The notes under the pieces: generated by a model
What the model saw: the letters and a program-made list of their open reading frames with translations, nothing else
What the model was told of the DNA's origin: nothing
Databases searched by the model: none
In this document: positions 3,834 to 50,905 of the stretch, in pieces
Numbering within the stretch: position 1 is the first letter of the stretch
Layout: every line of letters starts with the position of its first letter
Source of the DNA: Acidobacteriota bacterium
Lineage (GTDB): Bacteria > Acidobacteriota > Terriglobia > Bryobacterales > Bryobacteraceae
NCBI GenBank assembly: GCA_029776225.1
Contig: JAKOTR010000097.1
Coordinates: forward strand, 1 to 64,000
DNA length: 64,000 nucleotides
Direction: 5' to 3'
Made by a program: the position numbers and the translations under genes

Positions 3834-6038
3834 TTACGGCTCCGTGGTTATCTCATACCACGGGGAGAAGTCCTGGCCGTCGGCCTGTAAGTGAATTTCA
3901 AAGCCGTTCTCCGTGCGCCGGACGGCCTCCTGTGGAAGCGCGCGCATGCGGGCGCCGGCGCCGTCCAGCGGATACACGGACATACCCGCGGCGTTTGAAC
4001 GCACGAACAGCCTGCACTCGATCCGCTCCATCCACGTGGGTGGCTCACCGCCATTGCGGCTGCCTGAGGGACCGCTGCTGCCGGGCTCCGGTTCGAGCGT
4101 CCACCAGTCCTGCGCGCGCTGGTAGGGGATGAGCTTCTGCGGGCGCGGCGGACTGCCGGGCAAACTGGAAAGCGTGTAACCGGGATTCGTGAGCAGCATG
4201 CGGCGCGAAGCGCGGATTGGCTTACCGTCGAGCGCCGTCAGCAAAATGGCCGCGAACCCGCGGGAACTGGGCGCCAGCGTCACTTCCAGATCTCCCGCCG
4301 CCCCCTTGCTCGTTCCCAAAAAGCCGAAAACGCCGGCCACGGCGGGCGCCGCCACCGAGAGCAGCCTCTTGTTCGGGTCGTACACAAGCTGGCCCGTATC
4401 CGAGCGGTAAGGGGGCGCCGCCTTGAGCTGCGGCACCTCGCCGCCATCCCGTGTTATCGCCACCCGGTGGAGAAACGCGATGGCCGGGTCGTAGGCGACG
4501 GTCGCCTGGAGACTCCCCGCGATGTTGCCGACTCTGCGCTCCCGCGCCGCCCGCAGCCGCGCCTCAAGCGGCGCCGCTATCCGGATGAGCTTTTCGCCCG
4601 GCTGAATCGCGGCTGTGCGGAAAAGCCAGGCCGCCTGCCCGAAAGCGGGGTACTTCGTCCAATCGCCGTTGAGATCGAAGCCGCCCGGCGTCAGCTTGTC
4701 CCACTCACGCCCGTGCGAGTAGGCAAAGTGCATGATGGAATCCCAGTCCTGGAAAGCGGCGAACACCGCCAGCGCCGGATCGATCTCCGCGGCGTGCCGG
4801 TTCGGCCAGTTCTGGTTGAACTCGCTGACCGTGTAAGGACGGTTGTACTCGCGCGCCGCGGCCATGTTCAGAAACTGCGTTAATCCCGTACCCACCGCGG
4901 AGGCGTCCCGAATGCGCCAGTCGCGGCCATCCCAGGAACGGTTCGGGAAATTGTAGTGGTCGATATAGAAGTGGCTGTCCTGGTAGTCCATGTCCTGGTG
5001 CGAGTCGTAGTGCAGCAGGCCGCTGAAGTTGACCTGCGTGCCCGTGACCGGCACGAGCGCGTTCGTGCCGGCTCGAATCGCCGCCAGCATTTCCTTCAAG
5101 TAGAAACGGTCGCGGTCCACCAGGAAGAGCAGCCAGTCGTTGACCCGGGCAACGGGCTCCTTCTGCTCGACGGTGATGATGGGAACCGTGCCGGACTCGA
5201 GGCTTCCGCCCGGCGCCACGCCCCACGCGCGCTGCACGGCCTCCTCATTGCCGTACTTGGCCTTCAAAAACGCACTCCACTGCCTGCGCAGTTCCGCTTC
5301 GTACTCGCCCAGCGCCCGGCGTTCCAGATTGCCCCTCTGCCACGCCTCCAGCAGAGAGGTTTCGTTATTGATCTCCACCATCGCCAGCACCGGGTCGTCC
5401 TTCAGCGCCAGCGCTTCCAGCACCTTTGTGGTGAAAACCTTCTGCAGCTCCACCATGCGCGGGAAGAAAATGTGAAGCGGCTTGCTTTGTGTGGGGATGC
5501 CGCCCTCGACATCGGGTACCCGGTCCACGTCGGGCCGGAACCGGTAGCCGACGTGCAAGTTGAGGTTGATATAGACGCCCTCCGCCCGCATTGCGTTGAT
5601 GAAGGCGCGCAGCCGGCGCACCGCAATGGGATTCAGCGTCGGATATGGCCCGGTGGTCAGGATGCTGCGGCAGTTCTCCGGTTCGGCGTCCGGCGAGCTG
5701 TCCATGTGATGCAGGCGAACCAGGTTGATGCCCAGCCGGCGGAAGCGTTTCGCCAGCCGCACGGCGTCGGCTTCCTCGGGAAAATTCGCGCCGAAAGCCA
5801 GATTGACGCCGAACAGGCGGACCCGCTCGTCATCCGCGGTGTTCGGTTTGAGGTCGCGACCGACCCGGAAGAAGTGGCCGTCGCGGACGAACAAGCGATC
5901 GGCGGGCTCGATGGGCCGGTTCAGAAAACTGAAATTGGGAGCGCCGGCAAGCCGGTCCTGTTGGATGGAGAACTGGTACAAGCCTTCTTGCGCAGCCAGT
6001 GTGACGGCGCATATCAGCGGCACAAAGACAAGGCGCAT
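3834..6038 (-). CDS. Secreted GH5-like (clan GH-A) glycoside hydrolase
   Basis: The ATG at 6038 follows AGGAGGGTCGTG and gives a 734-residue protein with signal MRLVFVPLICAVTLAAQEG; the longer in-frame extension upstream has no ribosome site. A TIM-barrel region covers roughly residues 70-480. The acid/base glutamate is seen in MVEINNE and a likely nucleophile in TVSEFNQNW, the order expected of clan GH-A. RLHHMD resembles GH5-type beta-strand ends. A C-terminal region of about 220 residues is probably an accessory beta-sandwich. The substrate cannot be read from sequence. The neighbouring epimerase is on the same strand but 130 bp away. Exported polysaccharide degradation is likely. Confidence 0.7.
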   Translation of the reverse strand: MRLVFVPLICAVTLAAQEGLYQFSIQQDRLAGAPNFSFLNRPIEPADRLFVRDGHFFRVGRDLKPNTADDERVRLFGVNLAFGANFPEEADAVRLAKRFRRLGINLVRLHHMDSSPDAEPENCRSILTTGPYPTLNPIAVRRLRAFINAMRAEGVYINLNLHVGYRFRPDVDRVPDVEGGIPTQSKPLHIFFPRMVELQKVFTTKVLEALALKDDPVLAMVEINNETSLLEAWQRGNLERRALGEYEAELRRQWSAFLKAKYGNEEAVQRAWGVAPGGSLESGTVPIITVEQKEPVARVNDWLLFLVDRDRFYLKEMLAAIRAGTNALVPVTGTQVNFSGLLHYDSHQDMDYQDSHFYIDHYNFPNRSWDGRDWRIRDASAVGTGLTQFLNMAAAREYNRPYTVSEFNQNWPNRHAAEIDPALAVFAAFQDWDSIMHFAYSHGREWDKLTPGGFDLNGDWTKYPAFGQAAWLFRTAAIQPGEKLIRIAAPLEARLRAARERRVGNIAGSLQATVAYDPAIAFLHRVAITRDGGEVPQLKAAPPYRSDTGQLVYDPNKRLLSVAAPAVAGVFGFLGTSKGAAGDLEVTLAPSSRGFAAILLTALDGKPIRASRRMLLTNPGYTLSSLPGSPPRPQKLIPYQRAQDWWTLEPEPGSSGPSGSRNGGEPPTWMERIECRLFVRSNAAGMSVYPLDGAGARMRALPQEAVRRTENGFEIHLQADGQDFSPWYEITTEP

Positions 6039-6267
6039 CACGACCCTCCTATGAAAAACGCCACCGGCACGCAGACAACAACATTTCGGGCCGGTGCTGT
6101 TTCGGCGCTGTCCAAAGCAGGCGGGCACCCCGCACGGTTTTCCCGGTACTGACATCGCAGTGGAGGGTTTTCTCCGCGCCGGTCATGCCCGGTTGCCAAG
6201 TCTAGTTTACGCTTGTTGCCTTCGCGCTGCGCGGGGCCCGGCAGTTAGCCCCGCTCGCATTCGTGAT

Positions 6268-7439: not shown

Positions 7440-7640
7440 CAGCTCCGGCGCCAATAGGTGAGTAGCTGTGCTGTGGACCAGTTTACGGACACCGCTGCCC
7501 AAGTAACGCGGCCACCTTATCCCCGCACCGTGGTGGTTGGTTGTGTATACCTGTGCCGCTACCTGAGCGTGTAAATCGGACCCACGCAGGCAGATGCGAT
7601 CCATCGCGGCCGCCAGAAACGGCCACGCTTTTCAGGTGCG
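7440..7640 (-). repeat. Weak tandem similarity downstream of argJ
   Basis: The convergent gap 7351-7631 carries no gene. Within it, segments around 7466-7500 and 7551-7580 resemble each other and the argJ 3' end near 7635 (for example ctgtgccgctacctgagcg against caggtgcggtagctggcg), with steps of about 84-85 bp. The similarity is much weaker than at the other gene-tail arrays in this window, so this is a tentative call. Confidence 0.3.
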
Positions 7641-8810
7641 GTAGCTGGCGTTGATGTCGATATACTTTTCCGTGAGATCGCAGGACCAGAAACGCGCCTC
7701 GCCCTTTCCGCTGCCGTTCAGCACAAAGCGGATCAGGCATTCCTGGGCGTCCAGCTTCTGCTTCAGTTCGCGCTCGGAGAATTTAACGCCCACCCCCTTG
7801 GAGCAGACAAGCACGCGTTGCAAGTAAATATCGACCTTGGTGGGATCGAACTCGACGCCGGAATTGCCGGCGGCGGAGAGAATGCGCCCCCAGTTCGGGT
7901 CGGATCCGGCGATGGCCGTCTTCACCAGCGGAGAGTTTGCGATCGCCCGCGCGATGCGGCTGGCTTTTTCGTCGTCCTGGGCGCCGACAACGTGAATCGT
8001 AACGAGCTTGCGCGCCCCCTCGCCGTCGCGCGCGATTTTTTCGGCCAAATCCTCCATCACCCAGCACAGTACTTCCTGGAACACAAGGCGCTCCTTCTGG
8101 TTGAGCTTTATGCCGGAAGCGCCGTTGGCCATCAGGATGATGGTGTCGTTGGTGGACGTGTCGCCGTCGACCGAAAGCCTGTGGTAGCTCCGCTCGACCG
8201 CGGCGGCGAGCATCGTCCGGAGCGCTTGCGGAGGCAGCACCGCGTCGGTCATTACGAAGCCGAGCGTCGTGGCTAACTGCGGGTGAATCATGCCGCTGCC
8301 CTTGGTCATGCCGGCGATGTGAACGGTCCCGTTGCGAAGCGGCACTTCGCCGAAGGCCATCTTCGGGACGGTGTCGGTGGTAAGGATCGCGCGTGCGGCG
8401 TCCGGGAAACCGTCCTCGGACAGACGGTCAAACAGGCGGGGCAGGGCATTAATGATGCACTGCGGATCGAGATCCACGCCGATGACGCCGGTGGAAGCGG
8501 GCAGAACTTCCGCTACCGGCGCCTTCAGCAGCTTCGCCACCGCGCGGCACGTAGCGAGTGCCGTTCGCCGTCCCGTGCGCGTGGCGCAGTTGGCATTGCC
8601 CGCGTTTACGAGAATGGCGCGGGCGATGCCGCGCGAGGCACGCAGATGCTCTTGGGCTAGCAGCACCGGAGCAGCCTTAACGCGGTTGCGGGTGAACATG
8701 CCCGCGGCGGACGCGGGCCGCTCCGACAGGATCAGCGCCAGGTCGTCCTTCTTCTCCTTCCGAATCCCTGCGTAGGTGGAAGCGTATCGATACCCGGCCG
8801 GAAGTTTCAC
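7632..8810 (-). CDS. argJ: Bifunctional ornithine acetyltransferase / N-acetylglutamate synthase
   Basis: A 392-residue ArgJ. It makes N-acetylglutamate and recycles the acetyl group from N-acetylornithine in cyclic arginine synthesis. The autocleavage region is clear: TKGSGMIHPQLATTLGF, where the precursor splits before the Thr that becomes the nucleophile of the beta chain. GDTSTNDT and the C-terminal INASYRT end are also typical. It overlaps fmt by 4 bp (ATGA), so the two are likely translationally coupled. No other arg genes lie nearby; placement after fmt is unusual but the protein is complete. Confidence 0.95.
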   Translation of the reverse strand: MKLPAGYRYASTYAGIRKEKKDDLALILSERPASAAGMFTRNRVKAAPVLLAQEHLRASRGIARAILVNAGNANCATRTGRRTALATCRAVAKLLKAPVAEVLPASTGVIGVDLDPQCIINALPRLFDRLSEDGFPDAARAILTTDTVPKMAFGEVPLRNGTVHIAGMTKGSGMIHPQLATTLGFVMTDAVLPPQALRTMLAAAVERSYHRLSVDGDTSTNDTIILMANGASGIKLNQKERLVFQEVLCWVMEDLAEKIARDGEGARKLVTIHVVGAQDDEKASRIARAIANSPLVKTAIAGSDPNWGRILSAAGNSGVEFDPTKVDIYLQRVLVCSKGVGVKFSERELKQKLDAQECLIRFVLNGSGKGEARFWSCDLTEKYIDINASYRT

Positions 8811-9742
8811 TCGCTCATCTCCAGGAGATCATTGTCTCTTATTTGATAACCGTTCAGGAAATCAACCGCCGTCATCCGCCTCTTTCCTTCGAGCTGGACC
8901 TCCAGGAGTTCGAGCGACGTATTCGCGCCGCATGCCACGAACAAACGCTTGTCCCGCACGGCGAGCGATCCCGGCGCGCCCTTCGCTTCGCCGCCGGGGC
9001 GCGCCCGCCAGATCTGAAGTTGCCGGGAGCGAAACCGCGTGTAGCAGCCGGGCCAGGGCTGGAAGCCGCGAATGCGATTGTGGATCTCGCTTGCGGACCG
9101 CGTCCAGTCGATGCGGCCGTCTTCCTTCTTAAGGATGGGAGCGAGACTGGCCTGCGTGGAATCCTGCGGCTGCGGCACGATGGTGCCGTCCTCGACCCGG
9201 AGCAGCGTTTCGACGAGCAGTTCGGCCCCCATTCCCGCCAGCCGCGCGCTCAGCTCTGTGGCGGTCTCCTCCGGGCCAATCTCGGTTTCGCGCTGGAGCA
9301 GGATGTCCCCCGTATCGAGCCCCGCGTCGATCCTCATCGTGGTGACTCCGGTGCGCGTTTCCCCGCTCGCGATGGCCCACTGAATCGGCGCCGCCCCGCG
9401 ATACTTCGGCAGCAGCGAGGCGTGAACATTGATGATCCCATGCGGAAAAACGTCGATGACCGTCTGGGGGATGATCTTGCCGTAGCCCACCATCACTCCG
9501 GCGTCCGCGCCGAGCCCTTTCAGGAACTCCAAAAATTCCGGCGTGCGGATCCGCTCCGGCTGGTGTACGGGGATCCCCAGTCTCCGCGCGGCCTGCTTTA
9601 CAGGCGGTTCGGCGAGCGCGCGGCTGCGGCCCTTCGGGCGGTCGGGCTGCGTGATGGCGACAGCCACCTCGTGCCCCGCCTTTACGGTCTCTTCAAGGGT
9701 GGGTACGGCAAACTCGGGAGTGCCCAGAAAAACGATCCGCAC
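8807..9742 (-). CDS. fmt: Methionyl-tRNA formyltransferase
   Basis: A 311-residue protein that formylates initiator Met-tRNA using 10-formyl-tetrahydrofolate in the cytosol. The N-terminal catalytic domain has MRIVFLGTPEFAVP and the HASLLPKYRGAAPIQWAI signature, followed by the catalytic Asp in DAGLDTGDIL. The C-terminal OB-fold (about residues 205-311) is present. The gene begins 3 bp after the end of def and overlaps argJ by 4 bp. The def-fmt pair is a classic translation-initiation module because formyl groups added by Fmt are removed by Def. Confidence 0.97.
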   Translation of the reverse strand: MRIVFLGTPEFAVPTLEETVKAGHEVAVAITQPDRPKGRSRALAEPPVKQAARRLGIPVHQPERIRTPEFLEFLKGLGADAGVMVGYGKIIPQTVIDVFPHGIINVHASLLPKYRGAAPIQWAIASGETRTGVTTMRIDAGLDTGDILLQRETEIGPEETATELSARLAGMGAELLVETLLRVEDGTIVPQPQDSTQASLAPILKKEDGRIDWTRSASEIHNRIRGFQPWPGCYTRFRSRQLQIWRARPGGEAKGAPGSLAVRDKRLFVACGANTSLELLEVQLEGKRRMTAVDFLNGYQIRDNDLLEMSE

Positions 9743-11660: not shown

Positions 11661-12227
11661 ATGGATAAGATTGAGCGTCTGGCCGGACGCCTGGCCCACG
11701 GCTTCAGCCGCTGGGCGCCACACGATTCCGAAACTCACGATGAGATTCTGAAAGCTGCCACTCTTGTCTCGGAACTGACCGACGAACTCGCTTCAATCGG
11801 GTTCGGCCTGGCGAGCACGGAGCCGGCGGATACACCGGCGCGGAGGCCGCAAGCCAGGACCGCACTGGTAGTCGATGAATGCGAGGAGAGCCGGCGCGCG
11901 CTCAATTCCATGCTCCAGGATCTGGGATACGAGGTGCTCGAAGCGCCGTCCGCGGGAGACGCGCTGCTGATCCTGGAGCGCCACTCCGGCCCCATCGAGA
12001 TCATGCTGACCGACGTCGTGATGCAGGAAATGAGCGGCCGCGAACTGGCCGAACACGCCGCCCTGCTCAAGCCCGAGATGCGTGTGATCCACATGTCGGG
12101 CTACACCGACGCGGAGATCATGTACTGGGGCCTGTTGGGTCCGGGCCTGGCCGCGCTGCAAAAACCGGTCACGGCCGAAGCGCTCAGCCGCAGTCTTTCG
12201 GAAATCAGGGAAGAACAGTACGCCTGA
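11661..12227 (+). CDS. Stand-alone response regulator receiver protein
   Basis: A 188-residue protein (ATG at 11661 preceded by GGAGAAG; a GTG at 11658 is also possible). Residues 1-60 are a helical segment of unknown role. Residues about 65-185 are a receiver domain: acidic pocket in VVDECEES, phosphoacceptor Asp in IMLTDVVM, Thr/Ser switch in HMSGYTD and Lys in ALQKPVT. There is no output domain. No histidine kinase is adjacent. The receiver resembles those fused to hybrid kinases, so it may act as a phosphate sink or a partner-binding switch. It is divergent from aroC and followed by a terminator-like hairpin. Confidence 0.85.
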   Translation: MDKIERLAGRLAHGFSRWAPHDSETHDEILKAATLVSELTDELASIGFGLASTEPADTPARRPQARTALVVDECEESRRALNSMLQDLGYEVLEAPSAGDALLILERHSGPIEIMLTDVVMQEMSGRELAEHAALLKPEMRVIHMSGYTDAEIMYWGLLGPGLAALQKPVTAEALSRSLSEIREEQYA

Positions 12228-12234
12228 AAGCCCC

Positions 12235-12295
12235 GGCCCGGCGGCTTGCCTCCTGGCTCGAGTCTTCCGGCTTTTCTGCCGGGCCGGCCCTTTTT
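12235..12295 (+). terminator. Terminator-like hairpin after the receiver gene
   Basis: GGCCCGGC (12235-12242) pairs with GCCGGGCC (12278-12285), and a T5 run follows at 12291-12295 after GGCCC. The loop is long (35 nt) and could itself fold. The position just after the stop at 12227 fits a rho-independent end. Confidence 0.5.
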
Positions 12296-12398
12296 CAACT
12301 CCTCTTTGGCTCCGTAGAGCGGGGATTTTGCGCGTTTTGATTATTTCCGGTGGCCCTGGGGACGGTCCCCGGATAACCTGTGGCTTTGAGGGGCAAGG

Positions 12399-14441
12399 AT
12401 GCACCAACCGATCAAATACGTTGAGAAAGCCGCCACCTATGCAGCGCGTGGCGCGTGGTTCGTTTTTGAACGCCTGAACCGGATCCGGCCCAACCCTTCG
12501 TTCACGCCGAAGTGGTCCGATAAGCCGCTGCTGAAGTCGTGGGAGAAAAGCAAGCCGCCGCTCGGCTGGCCGCGGGAAACCGACTCCCTCTGCCCGAAGT
12601 GCGTACCGGAAATCCGCCAGGAAGTGCTCGAGGGCAAACGGCCGCTGAGCGAGCTGATCGAAGGGCGGCCAGGGGTGATCAAGGCCTGGATCGTCCAGCG
12701 CGGCGACCGGATCATGATGGAGAAGGAGTGCCCAAAGCACGGCCGCTTCGAGGACGTCCTGTCGATCGATCCGGAGTTCTCCGCGCACGTGGAGAGGATG
12801 TTCCCGGGCCGCGACATACCCGCCCACAACGACGAGGGGCTGCACCGCCACGGGGTGAGCACCGTCCGGTACGGGCGCGGCGCCGTGCTCACCATCGACC
12901 TGACAAACCGCTGCAACATGATGTGCGATCCGTGCTTCATGGACGCCAACCAGGTGGGCTTTGTTCACGAGCTCTCCTGGGAGGAGATCAAAACGCTGCT
13001 CGACAACGCGATCTCCATCAAGCCGAAGCGGCAATTGTCGGTGCAGTTCTCCGGCGGTGAGCCGACGTTGTCTCCGTATTTCATCGATGCCATCGCTTAC
13101 GCCCGCAAGGTGGGCTACAACAGCGTCCAGGCGGCCACAAACGGCATCGAGTTCGCCAAGAGCTACGATTTCTGCAAGCGGGCGGCCGACGCGGGCCTGC
13201 GTTACGCGTACTTGCAGTTCGACGGCATCGGCAACGCCGCCAACTCGCACCGCAAGGTCGGCAACCTCTTTGACGTGAAACTGCGCGCGATCGAAAACCT
13301 CCACAAGGCGGGGGTGGACATCGTGCCGGTGACCACCATCGTGAACGGCATCAACAACGAGCAGGTGGGCCGCATCATCCAGTTCGCGCTCGACAACCCG
13401 AAGAAAATCGCCTTCTGCTCGTTCCAGCCGGTTTCCTTTACCGGACGCGACGAGGCCATAACCGACGAACGGCGGAAGGCGCAGCGCTACACGCTATCGC
13501 ACCTGGCGCACGACGTGAAGAAGCAGACCGGGCTCGGCGAACCGGCGCGCGACTGGTTCCCGATTTCCTTCATCAGCACGTTTTCGGACTGGGGCGACCT
13601 GGTGCACGGGCCGAGCTACGACTGGGGCACGCTGAGCTGCGGATGCCATCCGAACTGTGGGGTCGGCATGGCGATCATGGTAGACAAGGAGACGCGCGAG
13701 GCGGTTCCCGTCACCGCGTTCCTGCACGCCGACCAGCTTGCCAAAGACGTGGCCTCGATCAACGACGCCGCGCGCGGCAAGTTCCTTTCCATCTTTGGCA
13801 TGGCGCTGGCGTTGATGAAGAACTACGATCCGTTCAAGGCGCCGCGCCACTTCCGCATCATTGACCTTCTGCAGAAGTTCGATAAGACCTTCGGGGCGAC
13901 CGGCCGCGACTACGGCAAGGTGTCCGGCGACCGCACGCGCGAGGACATCGAGAAGCGCCGCCGCGACCGCTGGAACTTCCTGTTCATCGCCGGCATGTGG
14001 TTCCAGGACCTGTACACTTACGACTTCCGGCGCACCGAACAGTGCATCATTCCGTACGCCACCCAGGAAGGCGAAATCTCCTTCTGCGCTTACAACACGG
14101 GCATCGGCTGGCGAAACATCGTCGAGAAGATGCACATGACCGCCACCCTGACGAAGTGGTATCAGGAGCGCGGGCGCCACGAAATCTACGCTGGCGGCAA
14201 GTGCGTGAAGCTGGACAGCACCGAGCACAGTCTTGTGCTGCGCGAGGAGCTCATAACGATCGAGGAGCAGCACGATCTGGACGCGCTCGGCATCGCCAAG
14301 ACGGCGCGCGAGGAGAAGGCTCGAGCCCGCGACGAACGCCTCCGCCGGATGCAGGAAGACGCGCGCATGGCGAAGCTCTACCGCCAGTACGTGTTGAAGG
14401 AGCCGCAGCAGCCGGAGTTGGTACAGATCGAGCGCCGGTAG
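12399..14441 (+). CDS. Tes/MSS-like radical SAM enzyme (candidate membrane-spanning lipid synthase)
   Basis: A 680-residue radical SAM protein. An N-terminal metal-site region has CPKC (65-68) and CPKHG (111-115), as in tetraether synthase (Tes). The radical SAM loop is C172-x3-C176-x2-C179 (TNRCNMMCDPCF). FSGGEPT (217-223) binds SAM. FQPVSFTGR (342-350), the CGCHPNC cluster (414-420) and a C-terminal QCIIPYATQEGEISFC segment (548-563) are family hallmarks seen in archaeal Tes and its bacterial relatives. Tes couples lipid chains through sp3 carbon radicals to make membrane-spanning lipids. A further charged helical tail (about 580-680) extends beyond archaeal Tes length. The coupled substrate is inference; the iron-type dehydrogenase downstream supports a lipid role. 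Start ATG at 12399 follows GAGGGGCAAGG. Confidence 0.75.
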   Translation: MHQPIKYVEKAATYAARGAWFVFERLNRIRPNPSFTPKWSDKPLLKSWEKSKPPLGWPRETDSLCPKCVPEIRQEVLEGKRPLSELIEGRPGVIKAWIVQRGDRIMMEKECPKHGRFEDVLSIDPEFSAHVERMFPGRDIPAHNDEGLHRHGVSTVRYGRGAVLTIDLTNRCNMMCDPCFMDANQVGFVHELSWEEIKTLLDNAISIKPKRQLSVQFSGGEPTLSPYFIDAIAYARKVGYNSVQAATNGIEFAKSYDFCKRAADAGLRYAYLQFDGIGNAANSHRKVGNLFDVKLRAIENLHKAGVDIVPVTTIVNGINNEQVGRIIQFALDNPKKIAFCSFQPVSFTGRDEAITDERRKAQRYTLSHLAHDVKKQTGLGEPARDWFPISFISTFSDWGDLVHGPSYDWGTLSCGCHPNCGVGMAIMVDKETREAVPVTAFLHADQLAKDVASINDAARGKFLSIFGMALALMKNYDPFKAPRHFRIIDLLQKFDKTFGATGRDYGKVSGDRTREDIEKRRRDRWNFLFIAGMWFQDLYTYDFRRTEQCIIPYATQEGEISFCAYNTGIGWRNIVEKMHMTATLTKWYQERGRHEIYAGGKCVKLDSTEHSLVLREELITIEEQHDLDALGIAKTAREEKARARDERLRRMQEDARMAKLYRQYVLKEPQQPELVQIERR

Positions 14442-14585
14442 CCCATCGCCGGCGCTCTCAAACCGCAATTCAAGGGGCGCAACCTGAGCTGGTGCGGATC
14501 GAGCGCGGGTAGCGCCTCGCCAGCCCGCCAACCGCTGTTCAAGGGGCAGCAGCCTGAGCGCGTGCAGATCAAACGTGGATGCGGC
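14405..14585 (+). repeat. Tandem decayed copies of the radical SAM gene tail
   Basis: The last codons encode QQPELVQIERR-stop (ending 14441). Downstream, segments starting at 14492 and 14562 repeat the gtacagatcgagcgccgg part (from 14421) with steps of 71 and 70 bp. They would encode AQPELVRIERG-stop and QQPERVQIKRG. The stop region of the gene sits in a strong hairpin, GAGCGCCGG / CCGGCGCTC (14430-14457), that is partly lost in the copies. The gap to the next gene start at 14634 contains nothing else. Confidence 0.8.
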
Positions 14586-14633
14586 TGCAAAAGGTTGCCA
14601 AGCTCCTTCGAATGGTGGTGAACTGGTCGTGAG

Positions 14634-15905
14634 ATGGAAGCATTCAGCAACGCAAGGCGTCTTTTGCAGGAATTCAAGGGCAGCCAGTACGTCTACGGGT
14701 TCGACGTTCTGCCGCAGGCGGGATCGCTGGCTGCTTCGCTCGGAAAAAAGGTATTGTTTGTCTGCGACCGGTTCCCCGGCTCGGAATCTCATGCCGCGTG
14801 CATCCGCTCATCGTTGACCGCGGCGGGGCTGGAGATCTGCGGCGAGATCGACGGTGCGGCTCCGAACGCGCCGCGCGAGGACTTGGCGCGAATTACCGAG
14901 GCTGTGCGCTCCACCAACCCCGGCGTTGTGGTCAGTTTCGGTGGCGGAAGCACGATTGACGCCGCCAAGGCCGCCGCGGTGCTGGGCAGCGTGGGCGGCA
15001 CGGTGGAGGACTACTTTGGCACCGGGCTGGTGACCGCCAAACTTGCCAGTAGCGGCGGCAAACTGATCCCGCACCTCGCCATACAGACCGCGGCCAGTTC
15101 CGGCGCCCACCTGACGAAATATTCCAACATCACGGACCTTGCCACCGGGCAGAAGAAGCTGATCGTGGACGACGCGATCGTGCCCCCGCGCGCGCTTTTC
15201 GACTACGGCGTTACACTCAGCGCCCCGCCCGCGCTGACCGCCGACGGCGCGCTCGACGGTGTTTCCCACTGTCTGGAGGTGCTTTACGGCGCGGTCGGCA
15301 AGCCCAGTTATCCGCTGATCGCCGATGTCGCCGCGGCGGGAATCCGGATGGTGCTCGAGTATCTCCCCAAGGTCATGGCAAACCCGGCCGACCGTACGGG
15401 ACGCGAAGCCCTGGGCTTGGCAACCGACCTCGGAGCGTACTCGATCATGCTCGGCGGCACCAACGGTGCGCACCTCACGAGCTTTTCGCTCATCGATATC
15501 CTGTCCCATGGCCGGGCTTGCGCCCTGATGAACCCGTACTACACGGTGTTCTTCGCTCCCGCGATCCAGGAGCCGCTGAAGCTGGTTGCGCGGATCTGCG
15601 AGGATACCGGCGTGGCCAAGCGGCCGATCGCTCAACTTTCCGGGCGCGACCTTGGCGTGGCGGTTGCCGAGGTGTTGATCGGCTTCATCCAGAGCTTGGG
15701 CCTGCCGGCGAGGCTCAGCGACGTCCCAGGGTTTAGCGGCGCGCACATCGAGCGTGCGCTCACAGCAGCCAAAAACCCCCAGCTACGGATGAAGCTGGAA
15801 AATATGCCCGTGCCCCTCACCGCGGAGATGGTGGACGATTATATGGGGCCTGTGCTCCAGGCCGCGGCAAGCGGCGATCTCGCCGTGATCAGGAACGTCC
15901 CGTAA
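14634..15905 (+). CDS. Iron-type (group III) alcohol dehydrogenase family protein
   Basis: A 423-residue member of the iron-containing alcohol dehydrogenase / glycerol-1-phosphate dehydrogenase superfamily. The NAD-binding segment GGGSTIDAAKAAAVL is at about residues 103-117. The metal-binding region runs through DGALDGVSHCLEVLYG and the later TSFSLIDILSHGRACALMNPYY, which supplies the conserved His. The fold uses NAD(P) to oxidise or reduce an alcohol/aldehyde or glycerol phosphate. It follows the Tes/MSS-like gene on the same strand with only repeat sequence between, which makes a shared lipid pathway plausible. The ribosome site is weak. Substrate unknown. Confidence 0.8.
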   Translation: MEAFSNARRLLQEFKGSQYVYGFDVLPQAGSLAASLGKKVLFVCDRFPGSESHAACIRSSLTAAGLEICGEIDGAAPNAPREDLARITEAVRSTNPGVVVSFGGGSTIDAAKAAAVLGSVGGTVEDYFGTGLVTAKLASSGGKLIPHLAIQTAASSGAHLTKYSNITDLATGQKKLIVDDAIVPPRALFDYGVTLSAPPALTADGALDGVSHCLEVLYGAVGKPSYPLIADVAAAGIRMVLEYLPKVMANPADRTGREALGLATDLGAYSIMLGGTNGAHLTSFSLIDILSHGRACALMNPYYTVFFAPAIQEPLKLVARICEDTGVAKRPIAQLSGRDLGVAVAEVLIGFIQSLGLPARLSDVPGFSGAHIERALTAAKNPQLRMKLENMPVPLTAEMVDDYMGPVLQAAASGDLAVIRNVP

Positions 15906-15929
15906 AGAAAGAACGCTCGCGCGCGGGCT

Positions 15930-16118
15930 TTACCGGCCGGAAGGCTCCTCCCGGATCGCATTGCGTACTTTTTCCATCAGATCCGGGGGGATTTCCTGCA
16001 TGCCGTGAGCCGCGCGCGCGTGCTCCCTGCACCTGTCGAGGACTTCCTGCTCAGTCTCCCCGCGGGCCTCGAAATCACAATCGACGCCCACTTGTCTGCA
16101 ATTGACTACCTTGGCCAT
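15930..16118 (-). CDS. DUF1059 family small protein
   Basis: A 62-residue protein. The pattern KVVNCRQVGVDCDFEARGET, two cysteines followed by an EVLDRCREHARAAHGM helix, matches DUF1059, a widespread family of small soluble proteins of unknown function often linked to stress. Start ATG at 16118 with GAGGGGAACC upstream. It is convergent with the dehydrogenase gene, with 24 bp between stops. Confidence 0.85.
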   Translation of the reverse strand: MAKVVNCRQVGVDCDFEARGETEQEVLDRCREHARAAHGMQEIPPDLMEKVRNAIREEPSGR

Positions 16119-16179
16119 GGTTCCCCTCCGAGTTCGGTCTTAAAACTATCTTAATCCCAGGCCTCGGGCAGTGAGAGAC

Positions 16180-16515
16180 TCAGCCTTTTTTCGCGCCCCG
16201 GACGTGGCACTTGTTGCAGTTGCCCTTGCTTTCGAAAGAGGTGCCGCCGGGCCGGTGGCAGAAGCCGCAGGAGATCTGCTTGGTTTCGGCCGTCCTGTGC
16301 ATCGCTGCCTTGTAGTTTAGCGGTGCGGTCGCCGACTCCGGCCACAGTTTGTCGTGGCAGACTTTGCAGTCCTCGTTGACCCGCTTGGAGTGGGCGGCGT
16401 GGTCGAAAGTAACATCGCCCGTCTTCGCCTTGAAAGTCAGTTTGTCCGCTGCTTTCTTTTCTTGCGCGACAACAGGTAGGAGTGAAATCGCAATCAGAAC
16501 GAACAATAGGCGCAT
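16180..16515 (-). CDS. Periplasmic tri-heme cytochrome c (class III / c7-like)
   Basis: With the ATG at 16515 the protein has 111 residues and begins MRLLFVLIAISLLPVVAQ, a Sec signal peptide; the longer open frame upstream is Pro-rich and not coding-like. Three CxxCH sites are visible: CKVCH, CGFCH and CNKCH. Extra histidines (FDHAAHSKR, AAMHRTAE) are candidate second axial ligands, as in bis-His cytochrome c3/c7 electron carriers. It likely moves electrons in the periplasm. A long 5' region with several hairpins precedes it. Confidence 0.85.
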   Translation of the reverse strand: MRLLFVLIAISLLPVVAQEKKAADKLTFKAKTGDVTFDHAAHSKRVNEDCKVCHDKLWPESATAPLNYKAAMHRTAETKQISCGFCHRPGGTSFESKGNCNKCHVRGAKKG

Positions 16516-40602: not shown

Positions 40603-41137
40603 CGCAAGCCCACATAGCATTCCGCGTACCCAACCCGCCGTGGCGCATCTACGGCCCGAAACTGCCGGTAAACGGATGCGGAACTCCCCTTTTTGTCGGC
40701 ATCTGACGATCCAAGTGCCGACAGATCGGCGCTAACGCCCGTGAAATCCTCAAGTGGGAGGGCAGGCGGAGCGCCGCCACTCTCCCCGGCTACACCGGGG
40801 GGCGGAAAGGCTTGGGGGGCCGGGTATCTCCACGTGCGTTCGGCGCTTGCCGAGCGGGCTCTGGGGCGGGTGAGCGGCCGGCCGGCTGCGGAGTATGTCC
40901 GCCTTGCCCGCTTTTGGAACGCGAACTGCCCTATCGCAGCCCGGCATGCGAACTCAAGAGCAAGCGTCAACCATCTCCAACCGGCCTGGGTTTGCGCAGC
41001 CCTCGTCCGAAGGCGAGCAGCTTTCCCTGCCGGAACCCGTGTTCCCGTTGCATCCGGAAAAATGCGGCGATGTTCCGCCCAATCCACGTTCGTTGCCTAA
41101 GAACGGAAGCCCGTACCGGACGCATGTCACGCCCTTT

Positions 41138-42202
41138 ATGGTGCGACGCGCGCTCCGGGGGTGGCTATATCCTTATTTGAGGTCGCGGGTGCTGCCCGGG
41201 GATTTCCACCCGATCATCGCTTACCTGTTTACCGAGTGGAAGTGCAACCTGGACTGCCATTACTGCTGGGCTTTCGACAACCGCGTAAAGGGGATGACAG
41301 AGGAGACCGCCCGGCGGTCCATCGACTGGTTACACGACATCGGCTGCCGCGTCCTGGCGCTGATGGGCGGAGAGGTTCTGCTGCGCCCGCAGTTCGTTCA
41401 CAAGGTGGTTTACTATGCGGCCAGGAAGGGTTTCTGGGTCTACGTGCCGACGAACGGGCGTCTGATGCGGAAGGACGTCATCGACCGGCTGGCCGACGCC
41501 GGCGTGGCCACGTTCAACCTGGCGGTAGATTCGGTGGAAGCCCGTCCCGAGCTGCCCAAGGCTCTCAACCCCATCCGGGAAGAGTTCGAATACCTGGTGA
41601 GGAAGCAGTATGTCTACGATTACAGCGTCTTCTTTAACATCAACATCACGCGGATCAACCTGGAAGACGTGAAAGCCCTCACCGAGATCGCACACGAGGT
41701 CGGCATCGCCACCGACTACCACATCAACGAGGCGCCGATGCTCGACCAACCGCACTTCAAGCACCTGGAGGACAACAGTACCTTCATCACACAGGAGGAC
41801 TGGCCCCGGGTGGATGCGGTGATCGACTGGCTGATCGAGAAAAACCGGTCGGGATACAAGATGGTAAATTCGGTCGCCCGGCTGCAACAAATGAAACAGT
41901 TTATGCGCGGCCAGTTACAGGAGTGGAATTGCCGCGCGGGCCAGAATTCGTTGATTATCCGGACCGACGGCACGCTGGCGCCGTGCTTTCCTCTGTATTC
42001 GGCCACGCATGACTGGGGCGTGGCAGGCAAGCCGAAATTCGACCCTGCTCAGCTTGCGGAAATGAAGCGGCAGTGCCAGCCGCGCTGCTACTCCACGCTG
42101 AACCACAACCTCGCGTACTGCTACGATGCGGGGCGCGCGCTCAAGTGGGTCATGAAACAGGCGCTGCGCGGCTTCCGGGGCACAACCGGCAGCTTCGATT
42201 AG
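41138..42202 (+). CDS. Radical SAM protein with C-terminal SPASM-like cysteines
   Basis: With the ATG at 41138 the protein has 354 residues; the open frame extends to 40895 but that part is poorly conserved in character and has no ribosome site. The radical SAM loop CNLDCHYCW is at residues 36-44 (Cx3Cx2C). LMGGEVLLRP replaces the usual GGEP, keeping the strand. C-terminal cysteines are in EWNCRAGQN, LAPCFPLY and CQPRCYSTLNHNLAYC, possible auxiliary cluster ligands. The product is unknown; the sequence is not Tes-like. A STAS gene is divergent. Confidence 0.75.
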   Translation: MVRRALRGWLYPYLRSRVLPGDFHPIIAYLFTEWKCNLDCHYCWAFDNRVKGMTEETARRSIDWLHDIGCRVLALMGGEVLLRPQFVHKVVYYAARKGFWVYVPTNGRLMRKDVIDRLADAGVATFNLAVDSVEARPELPKALNPIREEFEYLVRKQYVYDYSVFFNINITRINLEDVKALTEIAHEVGIATDYHINEAPMLDQPHFKHLEDNSTFITQEDWPRVDAVIDWLIEKNRSGYKMVNSVARLQQMKQFMRGQLQEWNCRAGQNSLIIRTDGTLAPCFPLYSATHDWGVAGKPKFDPAQLAEMKRQCQPRCYSTLNHNLAYCYDAGRALKWVMKQALRGFRGTTGSFD

Positions 42203-42667: not shown

Positions 42668-45600
42668 ATGGTTTCATGCAGAGTGTTCCGGCTAGCGGCA
42701 CTGATTGGCCTGTTCGCTCTGATTGCGACGGCGCAAACCGGTAGCGGTGTTATTCAAGGCGTGGTGAGGGACACCACCTCCGCCGTCGTCGCTGGAGCGA
42801 ATGTGTCGATCGTCCACGCCGACACGAACAGAAAATACACGACGACGACTAACGAAGTCGGCTTTTTCTCCTTTCCGCCGACTCAACCCGGTTCCTATGA
42901 AGTCACGGTGACCGCGCCAGGCATGCAGACCTGGGTGGGCAAACTCCTCCTGGTAGTTGGCCAGACGGCGGAGATCAGCCCGGTTTTGCGAGTGGGAACG
43001 GTTACCACCGAGATCACCGTGGAGGGCGGAATTACTCCGCTGGTGACGACAACGGATGCGACCATTTCGAGAAACCTGGAACGGACCCGCATCGAGCAAC
43101 TGCCGCTCAACGGGCGCAACATCGCGTCCCTGGTACTGATCAGCACTCCCGGGTTGTTTGGCGGCCAGGACGGCGCCATGAACCCAATCGTGAACGGCAT
43201 TCGCGACGGCGTGGAATTGTACCAGGACGGCGCTATTATCAAGAACCGCGATACGGGTAACTTCGCCGGGCGGCTTCCCGGACTGGATAGCGTTGAAGAA
43301 CTGCGCGTGGAAACCAGTCTTTCCTCGGCCAAATTTGACCGCCCCGGCTCCGTGATTCTCTCTACGAAAAGCGGAGGCAATCGAGTTCACGGAACGCTCT
43401 TCGAAACGCTCCGCAACAGCGCCATCGGCGTTGCCCGGCGCCGCCAGGACTACTATGACAAGCCGCCCCACTACGTGCGAAACGAATTCGGCGGATCGAT
43501 CGGCGGCCCCGTGTACATTCCAAAAATTTACGACGGCAGAAATCGCACGTTCTTCTTCACCTCGCTGGAGTTCCAGCGGATCGCCAGCTCTTCTACGACC
43601 CAGACCACCATGCCGACGATGGCCATGCGCCAGGGCGACTTCAGCGGCCTGGTGGACAACCTCAACCGGTACTACGCGATTTACGATCCCTTCACCACCG
43701 GCGCCGGTCCGACCTGGGAGCGGACGCCTTTTCCGGGAAACCAGATTCCGGCCAGCCGGCAAAGTCCTATCGCCAAGTATGCGTACAGCATCATGCCCGA
43801 GCCGACTAACAACGCCAATCCCTTAGTCACAAACAACTACTTCGGATTGGGTTTTTCCAACACCAGGGATTGGATGTGGACAACCCGCATCGACCAGCGG
43901 CTTAGCGACAACGATCAGATATTTTTCAGAGTCTCCTACAACTTCAACGAGGTGATGTACTCGAACGGCGTGCCATCGCTCGACAGGTTGCTCAACATCG
44001 TGTACGGAACCCACGACACGCCCAGCGGCGTCGCAACGTACACGCGGACTTTCTCGCCCACGTTTATCGGGCAGACGATGGTGTCGTTCTCGCGCGAGGA
44101 CAAGTTCGTTGGGTCGCCGGCTACTCCGACCGGGCAGCCCATGGCCGACATACTGCAAATGCCCAACCCTCGCAACGATCCCATGGTTGTTTACCATTCG
44201 TACAGTTCCGGGTTCGGGCTGAACTTCTCGCAGCAGCAGATGCGCCAGAACTTTACCAACATTCTCGTGATCCAGCAGGATTTCACCAAGCAGCACGGCA
44301 GGCACGAGATCCAGTTCGGAGGCAAGCTGCGGCATGAGTATCTGAAAGTAGCGATCGACAGTTCTACGTCCGGCTCATGGTACAGCAACCAATTCACGGC
44401 GCTTTTCGACCCGTTGAGCGGATCGGCTTACGGCTCCGTGCCGCAGACCGGCCATAACGCGGCCAGTTTTCACATTGGCGCAGTTTCTCAGTACCAGCTC
44501 ACGGTGAAGCGTCCTCCTTATAATCTGCGCGAGTACGCATACGCCGGCTACATTCAGGACAACTGGAAGGTAACTCCCCAGTTGACGATCAACCTGGGGC
44601 TGCGCTACGAGAACCAGCCTGCGATGTTTGAGAAGGATTACTTCATGGTGTCGTTCAACAAGAACACCGGCAGGCTGGTGCTGGGGCGCTCACTTGAGGA
44701 CATGTACAAGCACAAGCAGACCACCCCGGAAGCGATCGAACAGTTCCAGGCGATTGGCGTGGAATTCGAGCCGCGGGACGTCTTGGGTCTGCCGAAGGCC
44801 CTCGTGTACGGCAATCCATGGATTTTCGCTCCCAGGGTCGGGCTTGCATACCGGTTCGGCGACAGCTCGAAACCGTTCGTGCTCCGCGGAGGCTACGGCA
44901 TCTACAATTCGCAGGTGGCCCTGCGGGTTTGGGACAACACTCAGGGCAGCCTGGTGCCCTTCGGCTACCCGATCCAGTATCAGGTGAACGACCAGAGCCT
45001 GGTTGGCGACGGGTTGCCGAATTATGCGCTGCGTTCGGCTCCCGAGTTCGTGGCCGGAGTCAATTCTCGCGAGGCTCTCGACAATCCGCGTTTCGTTCAG
45101 ATTTCCCGCGGGATCGGCATCGAATACACGGATCCGGACCAGCCGCCCAGCATGGCCCACGAGTGGAACATATCCTTAGGGAAGGAACTGTTTGCCGGCA
45201 TTGTGGCCACGGCCAGCTACGTCGGCACCCACGGTCTGAACCTTCCCCAAAAGTACAACTTCAACCGGGCGCCGAACGACTTTGTCTGGTACATGCGAAC
45301 GGGCCTGCGAAAGCCGACGGGAACGTATGCTTCGGTTGGAATGAACCCGTATAACAACACGACTTATGGAAGCATTACCAGCTTCCAGAGGACGGGTTAC
45401 TCGAACAGCAACGCGTTTCAACTTGAAGTACAGCGCAGGTTCTCCGACGGCTACGGCTTCCAGTTCTTCTACCAGATGACCAATGCATTCACTAACTCCA
45501 CCTTTGTAGGGAACGGAGGCGGGCCGACGATCTTCCCGGCGACCACCTACCTGCCGGGCGTGGTTCCCGAGGATTTCGACTCCTTGAACCGGTTCCTCTA

Positions 45601-46351
45601 TTACACGAGAGATACCGCGATCCCCCACCACCAGCTGCGCTGGAATTGGGTTGTGGATCTTCCGTTCGGGCGCAACAAGCTGCTGGGCCGCAATGCGGGA
45701 AGGTTCCTGAACGCATTGATCGGCGGCTGGCAGCTCGCCGGTCTGGGGTCCTACAGCAGCCGGTACTGGTCTCTGCCCACGAGCAACTGGGGCTACCACG
45801 GGAACGTGGAAGTCTACGGGACGAAGTATAAGATCGAGGATTGCTCGGGGAACACGTGCATCCCAGGCTATCTCTATTGGAACGGGTACATCTCGCCGCC
45901 GCTCATCAACAGGAGGGACGAGAATGGCCGCTGCACCGGAATCTGCGGGATACCGGAGCACTATAAGCCTTCCAACCTTCCGTTGATTCCCTATGGCATG
46001 ACGGAGCTGCCGCCCAATGCGCCTGAGGGCACCAACATTACCCAGTACTGGGACTCCAACAACGTCTGGATACGGTTGAAGGACAACTCTGTGGTGCGGA
46101 CCGCCTACGACACGAACTACCACCCGTGGCGAAACCAGTACTTCGCCGGGCCGTGGACGTTCGGGCTTGACGCCTCGCTGTTCAAGACCGTTGTGCTGAC
46201 TGAGAGCGTGAACCTGCGGTTTAATGCCGACTTCTTCAACGTGCTGAACAACCCGGGTCTCCGCTTGCCTGGCGGCAACGGCATTCTGAGCCTGCAGAAC
46301 TCCAACAACTCACCGCGCATGCTCCAGCTCACGGCGAGGCTGACCTGGTAG
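42668..46351 (+). CDS. TonB-dependent receptor with N-terminal carboxypeptidase-regulatory domain
   Basis: A 1,227-residue outer-membrane protein. Signal peptide to about residue 23. Residues 25-105 (GSGVIQGVVRDTTSAVVAGA) are a CarboxypepD_reg/Cna-B-type beta-sandwich. A plug domain follows (GRNIASLVLISTPG, NGIRDGVELYQDG) and then a long beta-barrel whose last residue is Trp after LTARL, the usual outer-membrane assembly end. This is the Oar-like type expanded in acidobacteria, thought to take up oligosaccharides. Start ATG at 42668 has GGGGGAAAATCG upstream. It is the first gene of a carbohydrate locus. Confidence 0.92.
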   Translation: MVSCRVFRLAALIGLFALIATAQTGSGVIQGVVRDTTSAVVAGANVSIVHADTNRKYTTTTNEVGFFSFPPTQPGSYEVTVTAPGMQTWVGKLLLVVGQTAEISPVLRVGTVTTEITVEGGITPLVTTTDATISRNLERTRIEQLPLNGRNIASLVLISTPGLFGGQDGAMNPIVNGIRDGVELYQDGAIIKNRDTGNFAGRLPGLDSVEELRVETSLSSAKFDRPGSVILSTKSGGNRVHGTLFETLRNSAIGVARRRQDYYDKPPHYVRNEFGGSIGGPVYIPKIYDGRNRTFFFTSLEFQRIASSSTTQTTMPTMAMRQGDFSGLVDNLNRYYAIYDPFTTGAGPTWERTPFPGNQIPASRQSPIAKYAYSIMPEPTNNANPLVTNNYFGLGFSNTRDWMWTTRIDQRLSDNDQIFFRVSYNFNEVMYSNGVPSLDRLLNIVYGTHDTPSGVATYTRTFSPTFIGQTMVSFSREDKFVGSPATPTGQPMADILQMPNPRNDPMVVYHSYSSGFGLNFSQQQMRQNFTNILVIQQDFTKQHGRHEIQFGGKLRHEYLKVAIDSSTSGSWYSNQFTALFDPLSGSAYGSVPQTGHNAASFHIGAVSQYQLTVKRPPYNLREYAYAGYIQDNWKVTPQLTINLGLRYENQPAMFEKDYFMVSFNKNTGRLVLGRSLEDMYKHKQTTPEAIEQFQAIGVEFEPRDVLGLPKALVYGNPWIFAPRVGLAYRFGDSSKPFVLRGGYGIYNSQVALRVWDNTQGSLVPFGYPIQYQVNDQSLVGDGLPNYALRSAPEFVAGVNSREALDNPRFVQISRGIGIEYTDPDQPPSMAHEWNISLGKELFAGIVATASYVGTHGLNLPQKYNFNRAPNDFVWYMRTGLRKPTGTYASVGMNPYNNTTYGSITSFQRTGYSNSNAFQLEVQRRFSDGYGFQFFYQMTNAFTNSTFVGNGGGPTIFPATTYLPGVVPEDFDSLNRFLYYTRDTAIPHHQLRWNWVVDLPFGRNKLLGRNAGRFLNALIGGWQLAGLGSYSSRYWSLPTSNWGYHGNVEVYGTKYKIEDCSGNTCIPGYLYWNGYISPPLINRRDENGRCTGICGIPEHYKPSNLPLIPYGMTELPPNAPEGTNITQYWDSNNVWIRLKDNSVVRTAYDTNYHPWRNQYFAGPWTFGLDASLFKTVVLTESVNLRFNADFFNVLNNPGLRLPGGNGILSLQNSNNSPRMLQLTARLTW

Positions 46352-46500
46352 TACTCTGACAGGGCGGGACCACCCGCGGTGCATTTCACGGCCCGGGTGG
46401 AACGGCCGTTTCCGTGGCCGGGACGGAAATCCCGGCCACGGAGCAGGCACCGGCGCCTTTCCTGGAGCCGGTTGCAGGTCAATCTGATCTGCCGAGGAGC

Positions 46501-47517
46501 ATGGACGTGGACAGACGAAAATTCATCACGAACTCAGCGATTGCCCTGGGCGCTTTGAACTCCGCCGAAGTTGCGGAATCCGCCTTGCAGGGCGGGGCGG
46601 CGCAGGGCAGCATTGGGCGGCCGGTTCGAGCCGTGAGCATCGGTTTTAGGCCCGGCCCGTCGTTGGAACAAATCGCGGCGCTAGTGGACCAGGAGGGAGC
46701 GCGTGGCGCCGACCTCATCGCCCTACCAGAAACTTTCCGGGGCCAGAATGAACAGAGCCTGGAAACGCTGGACGGGCCGACAATCAAAGCGCTAGCCCCG
46801 CTGGCGGAGAAACACCGGACCTACATCGTCGCTCCGATCGACCGGAAAGACGGCGAGCGGCGGCTGAACTCCGCGGTGGTTTTGGACCGCCGCGGGCGTA
46901 TCGCAGGCGTTTACGACAAGCTGTATCCGTTTTGGGTCGAAGAGTTCCGAAGGAAGCCCCCCGTCAGCCCGGGTCAGCAAGTCACGGTGATTTCCACCGA
47001 TTTCGGCCGCCTGGGGCTTGCCATCTGCTTCGACGTGAATTGGGCGCCTCTCTGGCAGAGGCTCTCGGATTTCGGGGCGGAACTGGTCGTCTGGCCGAGC
47101 GCATATTCGGCGGGAAAAACGCTTCAGGCGCGGGCGATCGATTTCAGTTACTACATCATGAGCGCGACGTGGGTCCCCGATTGCCTGATCTTCGACATCG
47201 ACGGCGAGCAGCTCGTCTATGAAAAGGGCAACTCGGGAGACTTCAATATAACCCGCTTTACGTTTGATCTGGACCGCTGCATCTTCCATCAGGACCTCAA
47301 CCTGCCCGGCAGACTAGCGAAATTGCTCAAAGAGCGCGGCGACGACGTGGAGCGGGAGAAATGGCTGCCGATGGAAGGGTTGTTTGTGCTCAAGGCCAGG
47401 CGCCCAGGAGTCAGTGCGCGCGCGCTGGCACGGCAGTACGGCCTGGAGGAGCGCCGGCCATATTTGAACCGGAGCCGCAGCGAAGTGGACAAAGCGCGGG
47501 GCTGGCAGTTCACTTAA
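46501..47517 (+). CDS. Tat-type exported carbon-nitrogen hydrolase (nitrilase superfamily)
   Basis: The ATG at 46501, preceded by GAGGAG, gives a 338-residue protein with a twin-arginine-like signal (DRRKFITNSAIALGAL). The catalytic triad Glu-Lys-Cys is visible in LIALPETF, VYDKLYPF and LAICFDVNW. GQQVTVISTDFGRLGLAICFD is the typical strand before the Cys. It hydrolyses a C-N bond of an amide; the substrate is unknown. In a glycan locus it may deacylate an amino-sugar amide. 62 bp separates it from the GH9 gene. Confidence 0.88.
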   Translation: MDVDRRKFITNSAIALGALNSAEVAESALQGGAAQGSIGRPVRAVSIGFRPGPSLEQIAALVDQEGARGADLIALPETFRGQNEQSLETLDGPTIKALAPLAEKHRTYIVAPIDRKDGERRLNSAVVLDRRGRIAGVYDKLYPFWVEEFRRKPPVSPGQQVTVISTDFGRLGLAICFDVNWAPLWQRLSDFGAELVVWPSAYSAGKTLQARAIDFSYYIMSATWVPDCLIFDIDGEQLVYEKGNSGDFNITRFTFDLDRCIFHQDLNLPGRLAKLLKERGDDVEREKWLPMEGLFVLKARRPGVSARALARQYGLEERRPYLNRSRSEVDKARGWQFT

Positions 47518-47579
47518 GTGTGATCGTCCCCGGCGCTGCCGGATATTCCGCACGGGCCGCTCGTGAGGGAGATTTCGTG

Positions 47580-50881: not shown

Positions 50882-50905
50882 GCCCGATAGTCGCAGGAGG
50901 AGGAA

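Follow-up and report, generated by a model that had tools for sequence, protein, structure and literature searches.

The stretch of DNA analyzed here, referred to as the window, comprises 64,000 nucleotides (positions 1 to 64,000, forward strand, of contig JAKOTR010000097.1, assembly GCA_029776225.1; contig C75 of genome G000 in this analysis) from an acidobacterium of the order Bryobacterales, the Solibacter group. Two open reading frames (ORFs) lie on the forward strand exactly where the original prediction had placed them, at 12399-14441 (680 aa) and 14634-15905 (423 aa). The first encodes a radical SAM protein resembling the tetraether synthase Tes and is the main subject of this report; the second encodes an iron-containing alcohol dehydrogenase. 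The radical SAM protein matches the Pfam families PF04055 (3.6e-19) and PF23545 (5.7e-14), the latter an N-terminal zinc-ribbon that occupies residues 58-122. In comparisons with six homologues the gene is under purifying selection, and because nonsynonymous divergence (dN, 0.15-0.27) is far below synonymous divergence (dS, 0.8-3.8) the frame represents a real gene rather than a chance one. The Pfam name of PF23545, HMPTM, seems to derive from an older assignment of the archaeal M. jannaschii protein MJ0619 as a pterin methylase, if the name has been interpreted properly; that assignment is called incorrect in the paper describing MJ0619 as the tetraether synthase GDGT-MAS (PMC9433317).

The window protein is an acidobacterial "long form," a derived branch of the tetraether-synthase family. 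Against NF045702, the NCBIfam Tes equivalog model, it scores 308.3 bits, below the cut-off of 450, and it falls far under the cut-off of the TrsS model NF045646 (214.9 bits vs. 490), which describes a related radical SAM family whose proteins likewise begin with a rubredoxin-type site. A second homologue of 549 aa is encoded on a different contig of the same genome (G000:C62:60960-62429, minus strand); it scores 588.1 bits against the Tes model and is 37% identical to the window protein over the matched part. On these scores the possibility that the window protein is the genome's Tes proper was ruled out. The division extends to other genomes: among those listed, full-length short homologues score 474-619 bits, with contig-end fragments falling below the cut-off (424 bits in G216 and 361 bits in G199), while three long forms scored as whole proteins reach 308-324 bits. 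Full-length sub-cut-off matches in a scan of the class reach at most 338 bits among the matches listed, and were taken as long forms on the basis of frames of ∼650 aa and more.

Structural comparison places the window protein with GDGT-MAS. An AlphaFold2 model built from 48 sequences (predicted local distance difference score, pLDDT, 89.6; predicted template modeling score, pTM, 0.89) has the GDGT-MAS entries 7tom and 7tol as its top Foldseek matches in the PDB (2.1e-34 and 2.4e-32, respectively). Alignment with VIA gave Z 34.0 to 7tom (478 residues, root mean square deviation 2.6 Å, 30% identity) and Z 33.7 to 7tol (475-478 residues over both entries), the likeness extending over residues 56-594, and a phmmer comparison of 7tol with the window protein gave E 4e-60. 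The next-best fold family was viperin, at Z 15.6; matches to viperin, MoaA and HydE were discounted as reflecting the shared radical SAM barrel. As modeled, therefore, the protein has the tetraether-synthase fold.

A 52-row maximum-likelihood tree, rooted by choice on three TrsS-like rows (one of them, L215, scoring above the TrsS cut-off), unites all 27 long rows in one clade (support 100/100), which is nested among bacterial short forms, apart from the TrsS-like rows, and joins the short homologues L101, L102, and L103 at 100/100. Three subclades appear within it: A, to which the window protein belongs (17 rows, 100/100), B (5 rows, 74/38), and C (5 rows, 100/99). A stem of 1.76 changes per column subtends the long clade, and long branches also lead to the outgroup row L213 and to 7tol, the single archaeal row. 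The kinship with Tes foreseen in the original prediction is upheld by this phylogeny, with respect to bacterial Tes and the one archaeal sequence, and the sequences place the long form as a branch of the superfamily's Tes radiation. The short acidobacterial forms such as that of contig C62 belong to the same superfamily (33-37% identity to the window protein); the listed full-length ones differ from it in passing the Tes cut-off and keeping all cluster ligands.

Cluster ligands were compared in an alignment of 149 non-redundant long rows (that of the window included), 28 short rows and 3 TrsS-like rows, in which one long row, the fragment L136, is a gap at the ligand positions, leaving 148 readable long and 27 readable short rows. 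In GDGT-MAS a rubredoxin iron is held by C9/C12/C33/H36, a surface N-terminal [4Fe-4S] cluster is ligated by C73/C77/C80 and a conserved histidine, the radical SAM cluster sits on the CX3CX2C motif, and the labile Met439 belongs to a C-terminal cluster close to both lipid sites (PMC9433317). Three of these four metal sites are kept in the long form. The rubredoxin-type site of the window protein (12591-12740, plus strand) consists of C65, C68, C111, and H114; its cysteines are present in 148/149 long and 27/28 short rows, the remainder being gaps, and H114 is histidine in 147 long rows and glycine in 1. The radical SAM cysteines C172, C176, and C179 (12912-12935), the loop FQPVSFTGR at the SAM/active site (residues 342-350, 13422-13448; role from PMC9433317), in which Q343, S346, and R350 match Gln268, Ser271, and Arg275 of GDGT-MAS, and the C-terminal catalytic [4Fe-4S] site are each kept in 148/149 long rows, with one gap. 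The last of these is formed by C420, taken as a ligand from the motif CGCHPNC (residues 414-420, 13638-13658), and by M533, C549, and C563 (13995-14087), M533 aligning with the labile Met439. Between the latter residues stands Y553, equivalent to Tyr459, which is conserved in GDGT-MAS and not essential there (PMC9433317); it is tyrosine in 147/149 long rows, with one asparagine and one gap.

The fourth site is gone. The motif CPxxCGLCxxH, which supplies the N-terminal [4Fe-4S] ligands, is absent from the window protein, its place being taken by H149-x-H151-G-V-S154 (12843-12860). In all 148 readable long rows the Cys73 column is empty and the Cys77 column holds histidine, and the Cys80 column holds serine in 147 and alanine in 1. 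The same columns are cysteine in 27/28 short rows (one gap) and 3/3 TrsS-like rows, and these rows also have histidine at position 83, which corresponds to the conserved histidine of GDGT-MAS by alignment-based assignment. Since the motif is found in the TrsS-like outgroup, its absence from the long form represents a loss. Conversely, C414 and C416 are cysteine in 148/149 long rows (one gap) and in only 3/28 and 15/28 short rows, respectively. The alignment thus indicates that the long form has lost the surface N-terminal cluster and gained the C414/C416 pair. Of the Tes hallmarks listed in the original prediction, all six named motifs are present, CPKC (residues 65-68), CPKHG (111-115), Cx3Cx2C (172-179), FQPVSFTGR, CGCHPNC, and FCAYN (562-566); the set is nevertheless incomplete for want of the N-cluster motif, and CGC is not a general Tes feature. 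Structure and cluster ligands agree with a GDGT-MAS-like enzyme in the fold (Z 34) and three metal sites, and depart from it in the lost N-terminal ligands. The short homologue L103 (5282-6949, minus strand) combines CSCHTNC with an intact N-cluster motif and looks like a transitional state on the way to the long form. As it branches close to where the long clade arises, the extra cysteines may predate the loss of the cluster.

Besides the below-cut-off score and the altered ligands, the long form differs from GDGT-MAS in extensions at both ends. An N-terminal helix (residues 4-29, 12408-12485, plus strand; AlphaFold2 secondary structure) with a hydrophobic moment of 0.55-0.57 precedes the aligned part, the VIA alignment beginning at residue 56, and this predicted amphipathic helix could possibly provide membrane contact. 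The C-terminal extension beyond Tes length noted in the original prediction is real: 117 residues follow C563, where the 28 short homologues, fragments included, have a median of 39.5. Within it, residues 608-680 (14220-14438) form a charged tail that contains a predicted helix (636-664) and varies among the subclades.

The long form is very widespread. In a phylum sample 113/199 genomes matched the window protein at E<=1e-30 when up to five candidates per genome were considered; sorting by hand, with ∼50% identity or more counted as long, gave 84 genomes with the long form only, 9 with both forms, 20 with the short form only, and 86 with neither. In the class scan, in which up to five candidates per genome were likewise considered, the Tes model found a match at E<=1e-70 in 275/299 genomes and one over the cut-off in 24. 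In the Acidobacteriaceae (family f2, which includes Acidobacteriaceae bacterium ZG23-2), a hand count among the genomes listed found 4/73 matching genomes over the Tes cut-off (G073, G121, G367, and G445). When every candidate was scored, in 17 Acidobacteriaceae and three other genomes, 0/20 had a match over this cut-off, and the long form was the sole match at E<=1e-20 in 15/17 of the Acidobacteriaceae, the other two (G084 and G094) encoding one TrsS-like protein each besides it. In Acidipila rosea (G239) the long form stands alone, the next matches being generic radical SAM proteins of at most 57 bits. Seven genomes of named records all have a long-form match, HR08 with one protein over the cut-off as well. 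All 14 controls have matches to the Tes model at 1e-10, and the Thermotoga maritima control has none at E<=1e-20. TrsS itself was observed in Acidobacteriota (L215 4431-5846, minus strand; 571 bits, over the cut-off), as were divergent TrsS-like proteins of 305-310 bits (L213 4536-6095 and L220 1295-2959, minus strand; L221 614-2305, plus strand).

Temperature and pH proxies are built on the branched tetraethers of Acidobacteriota, and iso-diabolic acid is the chain type behind these climate biomarkers, but no enzyme has been proven to couple the chains in these bacteria. A role for acidobacterial Tes homologues in making branched tetraethers has already been put forward (PMC8941075, PMC10087280), and in the accessible text of both papers the "Tes homologues" are left undivided. 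Zeng et al. reported for Edaphobacter aggregans, a producer of branched glycerol dialkyl glycerol tetraethers (brGDGTs), a single homologue that is 32% identical, and for Solibacter and Koribacter homologues of 40-42% identity (PMC8941075); the former is supposed here to be a long form and the latter short forms. For Solibacter usitatus it was proposed that "one or both" Tes homologues couple iso-C15 diethers (Halamka et al., PMC10087280). The apparent novelty lies in a separate long clade that has lost the N-terminal cluster and is very common in the class; no description of this split was found in the titles, opening abstract lines, and passages of the literature searched, which did not extend to supplements or to the 2022 paper on Mss.

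The likeliest function of the long form, one held with moderate confidence from sequence and by analogy with GDGT-MAS, is tail-to-tail coupling of iso-C15 phospholipids of the iso-diabolic type. It is the only Tes-family protein in most of the fully scored Acidobacteriaceae genomes, and relatives (Occallatibacter bavaricus and allied Terriglobales isolates) contain 27-49% iso-diabolic acid (PMC12935467), which together make iso-C15 coupling its most probable job. Because the coupled chain is presumably alike in both lipid types, the long form could serve iso-diabolic acid and tetraethers alike, and the choice between ester and ether could be made by PlsA/Ger-type proteins (PMC13274423). Ger is described as having two BcrAD_BadFG domains (PMC13274423), and the genome of the window contains two frames with two such domains each (on C17 and C32). 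A Tes-like enzyme for membrane-spanning lipids, as envisaged in the original prediction, accordingly stays the best reading of fold, tree, and distribution, with the amendment that the enzyme is a derived form, under the Tes cut-off and lacking one cluster.

The substrate, product, and mechanism that we infer would be as follows. As in archaeal Tes/GDGT-MAS, two phospholipids would bind in a hydrophobic tunnel of the long form, in this case with iso-C15 fatty acyl (or alkyl) chains as tails. SAM cleavage at the C172/C176/C179 cluster would generate a 5′-deoxyadenosyl radical that takes hydrogen from a chain terminus, and the resulting carbon radical would stay bound to a sulfur atom of the C-terminal cluster (C420, C549, C563, and M533), in the manner of GDGT-MAS, in which the substrate radical is retained by a sulfur bond to that cluster (PMC9433317). 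A second round would then join the two tails and yield iso-diabolic-acid lipids. Conversion of these to branched tetraethers could be the work of ester-reducing PlsA/Ger-type proteins encoded elsewhere. Given the loss of the N-terminal cluster and the presence of two cysteines beside a C-terminal-cluster ligand, reducing equivalents may enter the long form by a different route.

Several observations weigh against this assignment. In S. usitatus two Tes homologues and brGDGTs have been reported, and iso-diabolic acid was not detected (PMC10087280); the pairing of lipid data with genomes is at the level of family or order, not strain by strain; no neighboring lipid gene backs the role; and Mss, discussed below, may occur in the same strains as the long form. 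The long stem of the clade suggests that function may have shifted, and the position of Arg210, a SAM contact in GDGT-MAS that is arginine in 28/28 short rows, is not kept: it is lysine in the window protein, and the 149 long rows include 69 with K, 30 with A, 13 with L, 11 with R, and 8 with Q. If the short homologue (G000:C62) were the lipid-coupling enzyme, the long form would perform another radical reaction upon membrane lipids (methylation, cyclization, or cross-linking, for example) or act on another hydrophobic substrate. The long stem, the missing Arg210 equivalent, and the lost cluster would fit such a shift, as would the scores against the Tes equivalog model, where the short form alone clears the cut-off (588 vs. 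308 bits). The long and short genes also lie near each other at four loci (L203, L204, L088, and L089), as two steps of one pathway might. This explanation is a serious contender yet an unlikely one, since no other Tes-family protein is present in A. rosea and in 15/17 fully scored Acidobacteriaceae, whose relatives are rich in iso-diabolic acid, and since the long form has a complete C-terminal cluster site, where GDGT-MAS retains its coupling intermediate.

The four loci were observed in as many genomes, with the long and short genes 0.2-5.7 kb apart: in tandem on the minus strand in L203 (10845-13001 and 8821-10632), on opposite strands in L204 (10010-12088, plus, and 7520-9238, minus), and both on the plus strand in L088 (7256-9412 and 12837-14489) and L089 (4988-6979 and 12625-14478). 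Near the short gene of L203, L088, and L089 is a small frame, predicted to be lipoprotein-like, that reads CTMWS or CNMWS.

Chloracidobacterium, which has two chromosomes and iso-diabolic acid among its primary fatty acids (PMC12816986), might appear to be a clean case of iso-diabolic acid with the long form only, but this was ruled out. Three genomes that consist of two contigs and encode an FMO protein (G096, G123, and G165), taken to be Chloracidobacterium, have a long form, nothing over the Tes cut-off, and two further Tes/TrsS-like proteins each (224-258 bits). The iso-diabolic acid of this genus consequently does not single out the long form, which is a further point against the assignment favored above. 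One of the extra proteins is TrsS-like (L213). The other, observed on the small chromosome of the probable Chloracidobacterium genomes (L219 1089-2663, plus strand; L222 1523-3283, minus strand), scores 303-310 bits, below cut-off, against the Tes and TrsS models alike, and its N-cluster motif and FCAYN are intact; on its sequence it is another candidate for iso-diabolic-acid synthesis in these genomes.

Iso-diabolic acid could also be the product of a Thermotoga-like Mss radical SAM protein, in which case the long form would be irrelevant to it. Mss, of Thermotogota and Bacillota, is the bacterial enzyme described in PMC13274423, with a proposed tail-to-tail coupling of fatty acyl chains like that suggested here for the long form. 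It and Tes are apparently not close, T. maritima being without a Tes-model match at E<=1e-20. In a Black Sea survey, Mss matches were reported from 11/97 acidobacterial metagenome-assembled genomes and Tes-type homologues from 17/97 (PMC11868695). Since nearly every genome sampled from the class has the long form or a relative, and the fold is much nearer GDGT-MAS than other solved radical SAM folds, this origin of iso-diabolic acid is considered clearly unlikely.

A bolder version of the coupling role would make the long form an iso-diabolic-acid synthase adapted to oxygen, with a putative metal site formed by H149, H151, C414, and C416 in place of the N-terminal cluster; these four invariant residues would constitute a His2Cys2 set, to be compared with Rieske-type or mononuclear sites. 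Haem-copper oxidase (PF00115) is found in 81/84 long-only genomes, 7/9 with both forms, 12/20 short-only genomes, and 60/86 with neither, groups that were hand-sorted from the scan of up to five candidates per genome, represent families unevenly and are uncorrected for kinship. The link of the oxidase to long-only genomes is a hint, consistent with oxygen adaptation. The full proposal is improbable; if true, the adaptation would let aerobic soil bacteria make membrane-spanning lipids.

The dehydrogenase gene (14634-15905) begins 192 bases after the long gene on the same strand, and its product is an iron-type dehydrogenase (PF00465, E 2.3e-31), as the original prediction had it. That prediction also linked the protein to glycerol-1-phosphate dehydrogenase and the two genes to a single ether-lipid unit, and both suggestions failed. 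The score against the glycerol-1-phosphate dehydrogenase model PRK00843 is 21.7 bits, where the cut-off is 413, its best model score being 99.8 bits (ErcA, cut-off 550), and a dehydrogenase homologue adjoins the long form at 0/171 other loci, which partly overlap and have flanks of ∼1.5 kb to 10 kb, some ended by contig ends. Identification of the frame as glycerol-1-phosphate dehydrogenase was ruled out by the model score and the absent linkage. Homologues at E<=1e-60 occur in 3/41 relatives, the genome of the window included; the other two carriers, G216 (62% complete) and G217 (96%), have short-type Tes matches only, with no long form found there. Moreover, bacterial brGDGTs have been proposed to be built on glycerol-3-phosphate, not glycerol-1-phosphate (PMC8941075). 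A two-gene unit with a glycerol-phosphate dehydrogenase, for which the adjacency in this window speaks, is almost certainly wrong, and the dehydrogenase is probably an unrelated neighbor.

There is in general no conserved neighborhood around the long form. Eleven window neighbors were compared with the 171 loci: the alcohol dehydrogenase, argJ, aroC, def, the cytochrome, orf16826, TolC, and both xdh genes were found at 0/171, and the remaining matches were sparse, one fmt-like (30% identity) and two to the response regulator (39-40%). The commonest neighbor cluster, which we take to be a queG-like gene, is present at 14/96 wide non-redundant loci. No sigma-70-like promoter was found in 12200-16200, and terminator-like sites in that interval were uninformative.

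Elsewhere in the window, an Rfam scan detected only a tRNA (263-335). A 773-aa open frame at 3834-6155 on the minus strand has no Pfam match at 1e-8 and no NCBIfam match at 0.001. A second radical SAM protein, of 435 aa, is encoded at 40895-42199 on the plus strand, and matches no NCBIfam equivalog above its cut-off, the best score being that of AhbD (63.8 bits, cut-off 500). Downstream of it, 42668-52432 (plus strand) encodes a large outer-membrane beta-barrel protein, a nitrilase-type hydrolase, a GH9 glycoside hydrolase, and an alpha-L-fucosidase, and looks like a locus for polysaccharide use.

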